Of a stretch of 64,000 nt of DNA, positions 10,496 to 22,260 are shown in pieces. This DNA comes from Tethya wilhelma (lineage: Eukaryota > Porifera > Demospongiae > Tethyida > Tethyidae). Within the stretch, counting starts at the first letter, position 1, and each line of letters starts with the position of its first letter. A program made the translations under genes and the position numbers. The stretch covers positions 11,095,588 to 11,159,587 of the forward strand of contig CAXIPT010000002.1 of assembly GCA_964030475.1 (NCBI GenBank), in the 5' to 3' direction. The notes beneath the pieces are model-generated. The model saw only the letters and a program-made list of their open reading frames with translations, had not been told where the DNA came from and ran no database searches.

Positions 10496-13400
10496 CTACA
10501 CTGATGTCTCTGAAAGTTTCATGTCTTTGTCTTCACTTTCTTTCTTGTCATGAGTTGAAGTGATTGTGTCATTTTCTTCACTCATTGCTTTAGGATCACT
10601 GCTTTGCTCCTCCTCCTCACTGATGTGCTGTATATGGAAACACAATACAGTCAGTATGTTTTACTACTAACTTGGTGTTGTACAAAGCCTCTATACTGAT
10701 ACCGTTTGTGGCTCTTGGTGTCCAAATGCTCCAATGTGAAGGTAACCAGCCATTGATTCCAAGTACACAGACAACATCTCAACCAGCTCAGAGAATGTAG
10801 GTCGGTCATCAGGTTCACGATTCCAGCATTGCAACATGGTCAAGTATCTGTTAGCAACAGTAAATGGAGTAACTAGCCATTGGTATACCAGGTATCTCTG
10901 TATAGTGATGTGATGCTTACACTTGGTCACTGCAAGCAGCATTGTTGGGTCTCTCCATCCTGTACCCACTCTCTAACTTGTAGACTAGGTCGGAAGGGTT
11001 GACACTGGCATAGGGGGACTTTCCTCCACTGAAGATCTCCCAGCATGTCACTCCATATGCCCACTGCATTCATACCAGTACTGTAAGTATTGCATTATGT
11101 GCTGGAGACTTACAATGTCAGTTTTCTCTGAGAAAATGGAGTCGACCAAACTTTCCAGAGCTAACCACTTGACCGGCAACTTGATGGCACCACCTTTGTC
11201 CAAGCGGAAGTAATCCTTAGACTCCAGTTGTTCTGATAGACCAAAATCAGCCACTTTGATGACAAAGTTCACGTCAATCCTGCATGAGAATGAATGTTGA
11301 CTCAAGTGTGTGTGACAATCCCATGATGTAGCTCATAATAAAAGATGTCTTTCCTTACATGCAGTTTCTTGTAGCCAAGTCGCGATGGACGACTCTCTTA
11401 CTGGCTAGATACTCCATCCCACTAGCTACTTGAAGACACATGTCAAGAAGTCTTTTGAGAGCAATTCCGTTCTGCAAACCGGCAAGAATATTAATTTTGT
11501 CATGTAAAAATTTAATTACAAGATCATCTTTTAACTAACGGCTTCATTGATATCAGAGTAATCCTCTTCATCATCCTTAGAAATGACGAGATTTTTTCGC
11601 TCCTTTTTCAGGTAGGAATTAAGACTGCCATTGGCCATAAAAGGCATTACAAGGAATGGTGTTGGGCCTCCATCCATACACACCCCAGTGAGAGGAAGAA
11701 TATGGGGATGATCAAACTGCTGCATTTTGAGGCACTCCTTGAGAAGGCCTTCAACTTGCATCTCATCAAAGAAACCTACACATTCAGTGGTAAGCACACT
11801 CACGACCCATGTAGGCAGGCTCTAGATGTTTGCATGTGTTCATATATTAGTGAATACCTTTCAATGTCTTGATGGCCACTTGACCAACTACTGTTCTACC
11901 CAAATCTTTCAACAAGTGTCCTTTGTAAACCACTCCAAATTCACCTGTAAGTGGCAGAAAGAATATGCATAAGTTGGTTGTACTATTGCCAAGTTGTACT
12001 GGTCATGTGCTTGTCAATGAGTGCTGATAATACCTTGTCCTATGGTGTCCAATATTTTGAGATTGCTTGAATAGATCAGCATCTCTTTGTGGATGTCTTT
12101 GACCATCTCAATTGAAGTGTTCACAGTGAACTGACCCAGTCCAGCAGCTTTACTGTCTCCTACTATAAAAATAATCTATTCACTCTTATGCCAACTTAAA
12201 AAACATTAAGTAAAATACCATAAATATTCTCCATTTCCAGTCTTTCACGCTGTTTTTCAGCATTCTCTTTCCTAAACATAGCATGAATGAATGTGTGTAT
12301 GATTATCTAAAGGATTAGAAATCGATGGATAATGGCACAACTGACATACTTGATGGCCTGGTACTTTCGACAAGTGAGAACCACTAGTACTGTGAACACC
12401 AAGAGCAGAATCACTGCTACTATCACCACAGCTATGACTATCCCCCGATGCACTGTTAGTATGTGTGCATGCACGTATGTATATGTAAACAGCAATTGTC
12501 GTACATGGTGAGTACCTTGACATGTCCGTCCATCATCATCCAATTCATAAGCACGTGGACAAGAACAAGTGTAGCTACCATCTGTATTACTGCAGTGTTG
12601 CTGATCAATACATCCATGAGTGTCTTCTTCACACTCATCAATATCTGAGAACAAAGTTAAATAATTGTGTTAGCACTATTTCCCCCTAACCTCCCATATA
12701 GCCTCGTAAACCAGGCCAAAATCACCACTTGTCTTGCTTATTGCTAACCACAGGAACTAAGTACATGGTTGACAAAGCTATATACTATTAAATTCTATCA
12801 TACCAGTACAGACTGTTCCATTTCCTCTGAATCCTTGACTGCACACAATGCACTCCACTTCACCACCAGACCACTGTCCACTGGCATCACACATTCTGGT
12901 CTGGTTCTCCAGTGGCTTCAGTTCAGAGCCATTGTTGCACACATAGGTAGCAACACTGGTGTAGATGGTGGAAATGGAGTATGTGACAGTACCATTGGTT
13001 GGCTCCTCTAGTTCTCCACAGTCAGTAACTAAACATATAGATTCAGTTATTAATTGATTATCAGTGTAAACATCTAATATTTAATACCTGCACAGCTCAT
13101 CATGTCTTCCTCTATGGAGAAGCCTCTGTTGCAGCTACATATGTGCTTCCCATCTTCCCCTCTGGAGCAACTTTGGTTGCAGTTGTTTGTATCTTGACAA
13201 ATTGTTGGCCCTATAAATTACCTCATATTATAACATTGTACATGCATGCATGCAAATATTTGTCTCAAACCTTGCAAGTTGACTCACCACACTGTGTTAT
13301 GTGAATACTCTCATTGTCACTTCCAAAGTCATTCTCTGCTCTACAAGTGAACACCAATGTGGTATTCTCACTGAAATCCAGTTGAAACTGTTTACTAAGA

Positions 13401-22260: not shown

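Follow-up and report, generated by a model that had tools for sequence, protein, structure and literature searches.

A Calx-beta array and a Met-like tyrosine kinase that very probably form one receptor gene in the sponge Tethya wilhelma

Can a single sponge gene carry both an adhesion-type array of Calx-beta domains and a receptor tyrosine kinase? Sponges aggregate and reject grafts, and a receptor uniting such an array with a kinase in a single polypeptide would represent a concrete candidate for the conversion of surface adhesion to an intracellular signal. We addressed this question in a stretch of 64,000 nucleotides of the Tethya wilhelma genome (the window; scaffold C2, 11,095,588-11,159,587), for which an earlier note had proposed a receptor tyrosine kinase with an aggregation-factor-like ectodomain. 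The genome searched comprises 124.6 Mb in 204 contigs.

The exons of the final model were set by hand using phase, splice sites, and ORFs, and we are highly confident of the resulting structure (window 22260-10496, minus strand; Table 1). The earlier note had chained about 35 phase-compatible exons, and the number proved to be exactly 35. Running from an ATG at 22260 to a stop codon that ends at 10496, they join in frame to give 2,281 residues and one stop codon. All 34 introns have GT-AG borders (median length, 78 bp), and those that lie from the signal-peptide exon as far as the membrane-span exon are without exception in phase 1 (25/25); the intracellular introns are of mixed phases. Phase-1 introns throughout are the pattern of shuffled extracellular modules. 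The encoded order is a putative signal peptide, a Cys module, nine Calx-beta domains, an Ig-like domain, EGF, sushi, EGF, a putative single membrane span, and a Met-like kinase; the signal peptide and the membrane span were both assigned by eye, in exons of compatible phase. Counting the signal peptide, 1,847 residues precede the membrane-span exon; this part has 45 Cys and 30 N-x-S/T sites and is acidic (287 D+E vs 98 K+R). Automated models were discarded: that of an exon-chaining gene finder lacked the exons for the signal peptide and EGF1, truncated those for the membrane span and Ig, and fused the upstream gene to this one, and exon chaining over the whole window strung unrelated genes together and was not used.

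Table 1. Exons and related features of the Calx-beta receptor kinase gene, in window positions
Feature	Position	Strand	Evidence or remark
Exon 1, signal peptide	22209..22260	-	by eye
Exon 2, Cys-rich module (Cys55)	21958..22122	-	C1 counterpart 50%; also in other Calx-array genes
Calx1a	20979..21128	-	Calx1 alone without Pfam match
Calx1b	20684..20908	-	gene model
Calx2a	20415..20618	-	Pfam, Calx2 27.6 bits
Calx2b	20063..20287	-	Pfam, Calx2 unit
Calx3, single exon	19568..19990	-	19.0 bits, under cut-off
Calx4a	19348..19497	-	Pfam, Calx4 50.8 bits
Calx4b	19048..19269	-	Pfam, Calx4 unit
Calx5a	18849..18986	-	Pfam, Calx5 75.4 bits
Calx5b	18434..18640	-	Pfam, Calx5 unit
Calx6a, first half of split domain	17961..18110	-	joined a+b 43.0 bits
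Stretch between Calx6 halves, 1,988 bp, holds vWA cassette	15973..17960	-	122 bp at C1, 81 bp at C169
vWA-like exon	16376..17086	-	7-copy profile; D13, T15, S17, T111, D144
Cys exon accompanying vWA exon (CysPost)	16049..16234	-	at 5/6 other vWA places
Calx6b, second half of split domain	15682..15972	-	Pfam, joined with Calx6a
Calx7a	15393..15590	-	C10 copy; Pfam, Calx7 29.0 bits
Calx7b	15111..15317	-	C10 copy
Calx8a	14892..15029	-	C10 copy; Pfam, Calx8 73.2 bits
Calx8b	14592..14819	-	C10 copy
Calx9a	14347..14499	-	C10 copy; Pfam, Calx9 46.9 bits
Calx9b	14043..14255	-	C10 copy
Ig-like domain exon	13288..13716	-	C10 copy; Pfam ig E 0.11; relatives at other kinase loci
EGF1	13088..13210	-	C10 copy; Pfam
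Sushi domain	12804..13028	-	C10 copy; Pfam 19.6 bits, cut-off 20.7
EGF2, calcium-binding type	12516..12644	-	C10 copy; Pfam
Membrane-span exon	12350..12452	-	C10 copy; by eye
Juxtamembrane exon 1 (Tyr1899)	12219..12271	-	gene model
Juxtamembrane exon 2 (Tyr1929)	12034..12159	-	alternative NAGNAG acceptor may give 12162, in frame
Kinase exon 1 (GEFG loop, VAIK)	11858..11944	-	MET alignment
Kinase exon 2 (helix C Glu; kinase insert with Tyr2043)	11540..11775	-	MET alignment
Kinase exon 3 (HRDLATRN)	11359..11471	-	MET alignment
Kinase exon 4 (DFG, activation-loop Tyr2110)	11114..11279	-	MET alignment
Kinase exon 5	10921..11063	-	gene model
Kinase exon 6, kinase end	10703..10847	-	gene model
Last exon (tyrosine-free acidic tail, stop codon)	10496..10627	-	gene model

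A Pfam search with four pieces that together cover the whole protein (E<=0.1) strongly recovered Calx-beta (E 1.6e-42 and 1.6e-46), EGF (EGF_CA/cEGF), and tyrosine kinase (PF07714, E 2.4e-84), in agreement with the domains named in the earlier note; the sushi domain fell just under its cut-off. The same search of the whole protein gave no match to VWD and none to Sema, PSI, or IPT. The tandem Calx-beta array itself was borne out, and the exon structure sets its size at nine units rather than about ten. When the units were tested singly, seven of the nine (Calx2 and Calx4-9, with the Calx6 halves joined) reached the curated cut-off of 27 bits. Calx3 stayed below it and Calx1 gave no match at E<=1, and both nonetheless have counterparts in paralogues. 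Pfam gives only a weak match for the Ig unit, but exons related to it are found at other kinase loci. By eye, an acidic end motif (D-x-D) is found in six of the nine units (1, 2, 3, 5, 6, and 7) and is absent from Calx4, 8, and 9; therefore, not every unit need bind calcium.

The vWA domain had been read as one module in series, and this part of the reading had to be changed: the vWA exon, together with an accompanying Cys exon, forms a cassette inside Calx6, between its half-exons. These halves lie 1,988 bp apart in the window vs 122 bp at a paralogous locus on scaffold C1 and 81 bp on the unplaced contig C169, both of which are vWA-less. The vWA exon has no Pfam match at E<=0.1, and its single-sequence AlphaFold model, made without an alignment, was too poor for a fold search (pLDDT 49). 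Nevertheless, a vWA domain in the ectodomain is upheld by a profile built from seven genomic copies of the exon and searched against solved structures (PDB), the best match being PTMP1 (E 8.7e-5), followed by integrin alpha-X (0.0039), alpha-1, alpha-L, and TRAP. By name, 39 of the 41 matches are vWA/I-domain proteins, and the other two have E values of 0.34 and 1.8. Residues D13, T15, S17, T111, and D144, which we take to be a MIDAS-type set, are invariant in all seven copies.

The vWA exon recurs at six other genomic places, five of which also have the Cys exon: three copies of the pair at C1:26.25-26.27 Mb (vWA 69-74% identical) and two at C4:4.0 Mb (48-50%). The sixth, at C4:5.36 Mb (37%), has no Cys-exon match there. 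Five of the six places were read, and the exon is surrounded there by predicted EGF-like modules or by Calx and EGF-like modules. Most simply, a pair of phase-1 exons (vWA and Cys) was later inserted into the central intron of a Calx-beta domain; alternatively, the cassette may have been lost elsewhere rather than gained in the window gene. Skipping both exons would preserve the reading frame. At this locus, one domain interrupts another, and close relatives that lack the vWA probably represent the earlier arrangement.

Could two or more genes have been read together, i.e., a Calx-array gene and a separate Ig-EGF-sushi-EGF kinase gene, with the vWA exons belonging to either? Calx-array genes without a nearby kinase are common in this genome among the matches listed, and the 874-bp intron before the vWA exon has three poly(A)-like hexamers, but introns contain 9 such hexamers per 4,919 bp, so that 1.6 are expected in 874 bp. 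Moreover, Calx6a needs Calx6b, which is located after the vWA exon, and the same Calx6 junction is an intron of 122 bp at C1 and of 81 bp at C169. This worry is answered mainly by two paralogues, since one has the same order and the other repeats Calx7 to kinase, and we regard run-together genes as very unlikely. Instead, the array and the kinase very probably constitute one real sponge gene, and the paralogues argue for the single receptor with a Calx-beta array ectodomain that had been proposed. The junctions that the earlier note singled out for checking, 17961/17086 and 12516/12350, likewise appear sound, judging from the C1 and C10 paralogues and from the adjacent Calx6 halves of vWA-less copies.

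The first paralogue, at C1:14.587-14.607 Mb, is diverged, lies on another scaffold, and has the same order from the Cys module to the kinase. Matches at E<=0.05 were obtained for 24 of 33 exons (the vWA pair left out), with identities of 29-56% in the ectodomain, 76% in juxtamembrane exon 2, and 72-93% in the kinase exons. Six more Calx halves (Calx4b, 6a, 7a, 7b, 8b, and 9a) were located with gene prediction or by visual inspection; no match at this locus was obtained for the signal-peptide exon, juxtamembrane exon 1, or the last exon. Its Calx9 halves are separated by an intron of ~10 kb that bears a Helitron and a 73-N stretch; the link between the two parts of this paralogue therefore depends on their order along the scaffold and on their together making up a complete Calx9. 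The Helitron-type transposon (identified by eye; L055, C1:14594001-14599000) has a 1,666-aa open frame.

The second paralogue, a segmental duplicate at C10:1.540-1.547 Mb, is 76-100% identical to the window gene from Calx7a through kinase exon 6, with introns aligned in good part. Homology ends three bases beyond exon Calx7a, and the N-terminal half is absent. Upstream of this copy are repeats and a three-Ig gene, whose three Ig-like exons are on the same strand (L050, C10:1550501-1556500); conceivably, they serve as a new front end of the copy by fusion. Comparison with C10, with one stray Calx5a cross-match left out, gave Ka/Ks values of 0.25 for Calx7-9, 0.21 for Ig, 0.39 for EGF-sushi, 0.43 for the membrane-span and juxtamembrane part, and 0.15 for the kinase. 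Taken together, these values (Ka/Ks 0.15-0.43) indicate purifying selection on the modules from Calx7 to the kinase. Constraint is weaker in Calx1-6, where Ka/Ks is 0.49-0.66 vs C169 and a tandem copy of the gene front (the vWA exon left out). In addition, at eight of the nine loci where the Ig exon was fetched (window, C10, C1, L052, L053, L056, L058, and L059), a further ectodomain exon lies ahead of it; at the ninth, L054, the exon before Ig was not identified.

The tandem copy mentioned above lies downstream in the window (9954-3558, minus strand), comprises the signal peptide, Cys module, and Calx1-5a at 57-89% identity, and breaks near a single N at 3412. A continuation, Calx5b-9a, is found on C169 (L051; 3500-481, minus strand), which is 98% identical over window 3410-5184 and appears to be a mosaic: Ks vs the kinase gene is 0.09 for Calx7-9 and 0.39 for Calx4-6. 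Two inverted near-copies also occur in the window, each within ~150 bp of a single N: one of the gene's 5' end at 40180-41031 (plus strand, 91%; N at 40035) and one of Calx1a-2a at 2442-3264 (plus strand, 97%; N at 3412). They are likely allelic or misjoined pieces.

Inverted near-copies that adjoin single Ns and a contig that looks allelic or mosaic would fit a reading of the gene itself as a pseudogene, a haplotype mosaic, or an assembly artefact. We consider this extremely unlikely: of the ten single Ns in the window (possible assembly joins), none is within the gene, the nearest being 3412 and 35608 with no N between them, and a single open frame of 2,281 codons is constrained from Calx7 to the kinase.

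Both halves of the gene belong to local families. Its N-lobe exon has at least 30 genomic matches at 64% identity or more (hand count, window included). Seven relatives were fetched upstream of the kinase, of which L054 did not reach the region, leaving six readable. Five of these (L052, L053, L056, L057, and L058, the last with the second half only) have a Calx-beta unit before NIDO, as identified by Pfam for L052 and L053 and by similarity for the other three, and L059 has no Calx-beta unit in the upstream exons read. Calx-beta plus kinase is therefore a family feature in this genome that is not unique to the window gene, which is its extreme member. These five Sushi-Calx-NIDO-Ig-EGF kinases share the Ig-EGF-sushi-EGF-kinase half with the window gene where read, but they have one Calx-beta and NIDO, whereas the window gene has nine Calx-beta domains, a nested vWA, and no NIDO. 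Their Calx-beta unit before NIDO and Ig also speaks against run-together genes. The exon chain was traced as far as the kinase in L052, EGF in L053, and Ig in L056 and L058; in L057, it was traced to NIDO, with Ig and kinase matches beyond the stretch read.

The front made up of the Cys module and Calx1-3 occurs in a separate family of array genes, located on C2 (8.48, 10.77-10.89, 11.09-11.12, and 16.29 Mb), C4, C5, C7, C8, C9, and C85, and among the matches listed, only the window and C1 loci join this front to this kinase. The window gene thus combines an array-family front with a receptor-family stalk and kinase. On C2, at least 35 Calx-beta matches (hand count) lie between 10.76 and 11.34 Mb. 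Receptor evolution is visible here as a large kinase family whose ectodomains have been rearranged via phase-1 introns where read.

Other arrays were also observed. Upstream of the receptor gene (within window 37252-22990, minus strand), DEAD-box-like exons were noted from a look at the sequence at ~37.3-34.6 kb, and Calx-beta array exons lie at 32.8-24.9 kb (Pfam, 126 bits on part). The Cys module of this array gene resembles that of the receptor gene by eye, and its C-terminal part, which ends in CGLCG.., is unrecognized by Pfam; a VWD domain considered for it had no Pfam match in that part. Calx-beta arrays at C7:3.224-3.229 Mb and C10:0.790-0.797 Mb, with mostly identical pairwise scores, are a recent duplicate or haplotype copy.

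The kinase has every key residue, as the earlier note had stated: the Lys, helix-C Glu, HRD, DFG, and ALES motif align with MET. The activation loop has a single tyrosine (2110). Tyrosines 1899 and 1929 lie in the juxtamembrane part, and Tyr2043 is located in the kinase insert, which is acidic. In the kinase tree, it falls in a sponge clade with Amphimedon, Ephydatia, and Halichondria rows (support 100/99; 16 of 38 rows), which MET/RON rows, together with RYK-labeled and bivalve HGFR-like rows, join at 89/92, the tree being drawn open. The kinase thus belongs to a sponge Met-like clade. Its PDB match list is headed by EGFR-labeled 9p9u, whose score sums two stretches, followed by HGF receptor, AXL, MER, RET, and RON.

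What can be read from the genome is the domain order, its repetition in paralogues, the complete catalytic residues, and the Calx7-kinase constraint; from these, we infer that this Calx-beta receptor kinase may serve adhesion or self-recognition signaling. The best overall explanation, which we consider likely, is a single type I receptor kinase gene with a nested vWA cassette and an adhesion-type action. As for the mechanism, we offer the following only tentatively, at somewhat less than even confidence. A chain of nine Calx-beta domains, joined via phase-1 introns to the Ig-EGF-sushi-EGF stalk of the large local receptor family, would form a calcium-stiffened rod that holds out the vWA head. 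This head might bind a neighboring cell, matrix, or aggregation material, and multivalent binding could cluster the receptors. The clustered kinases would then phosphorylate each other on Tyr2110, and SH2 adaptors might be recruited via Tyr1899/1929 and the kinase-insert Tyr2043. Since the Calx-beta ectodomain and the kinase would be in one receptor, the sensing of contact or matrix may be coupled directly to phosphotyrosine signaling.

Calx-beta arrays and vWA domains are mostly adhesion modules, which weighs against the main rival, namely that the same receptor serves in innate immunity or in symbiont sensing and detects microbial or soluble ligands; this we deem unlikely but credible. A large family with shuffled ectodomains would suit such a sensor, as would an ectodomain that diverges faster than the kinase (Ka vs C1 of 0.33-0.62 and 0.118, respectively, with Ks near or at saturation), but fast divergence equally fits recognition of self. 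In addition, a study on the response of Dysidea avara to symbionts names one NIDO gene, another with Calx-beta, and a kinase gene (PMC11229196). A bolder version of the adhesion reading, which we rate as rather improbable, is that a receptor kinase captured an array gene from an aggregation-factor-like cluster, such that species- or self-specific adhesion would be read as tyrosine phosphorylation in one molecule. The vWA head would then be a splice switch producing headed and headless isoforms, because Calx6 would become an ordinary, uninterrupted domain if the two phase-1 exons were skipped.

The passages of literature retrieved and the matches listed contain no receptor of this domain order and no receptor kinase with Calx-beta; the earlier note likewise knew of no described receptor with this order. 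Protein-database queries with the EGF region were swamped by fibrillins, leaving the kinase region as the only informative query; Calx-beta was marked in none of the best 120 of its 745 matches (proteins 0.55-1.75 times the length). Calx-beta receptor kinase relatives may exist in other sponges. One match pairing the two, P0030 (2,518 aa; FHA, kinase, and Calx-beta), was rejected as kin given its kinase (22% identical, long branch); it is probably bacterial and an unrelated pairing.

Among known systems, the closest kinases are those of Ephydatia (Em0014g149a), Halichondria (plexin-A2-like), and Amphimedon (A0A1X7TH..), which are 52-54% identical to the window kinase and in one clade with it (100/99), but their precomputed Pfam ectodomains are IPT/PSI or SRCR/Fz rather than Calx-beta. 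MET and RON have the catalytic residues in common with the window receptor, and HGF receptor ranks second among its PDB matches; however, they have a Sema-PSI-IPT ectodomain and two activation-loop tyrosines, whereas the window kinase has one and its last exon is devoid of tyrosine. Sponge aggregation factors have tandem Calx-beta domains, a VWD domain, and a Wreath domain, and are secreted core proteins not known to carry a kinase. These factors were reportedly treated by Grice et al. in 2017. They share tandem Calx-beta with the window gene, which has many array exons in the same region, but the window gene has a membrane-anchored kinase and no VWD was found by Pfam; being built like an aggregation factor thus holds for the tandem Calx-beta only. 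ADGRV1/VLGR1 is an adhesion GPCR with Calx-beta domains and works alike in placing Calx-beta on a signaling receptor, but that receptor is a seven-span GPCR instead of a kinase. Calx-beta is listed among adhesion-GPCR domains in two papers (PMC13197933, PMC12716839). Finally, RET, described as a cadherin-bearing receptor kinase (PMC8662651), has a cadherin-like ectodomain and belongs to another kinase family, but it works alike in setting an adhesive, calcium-type ectodomain on a receptor kinase.
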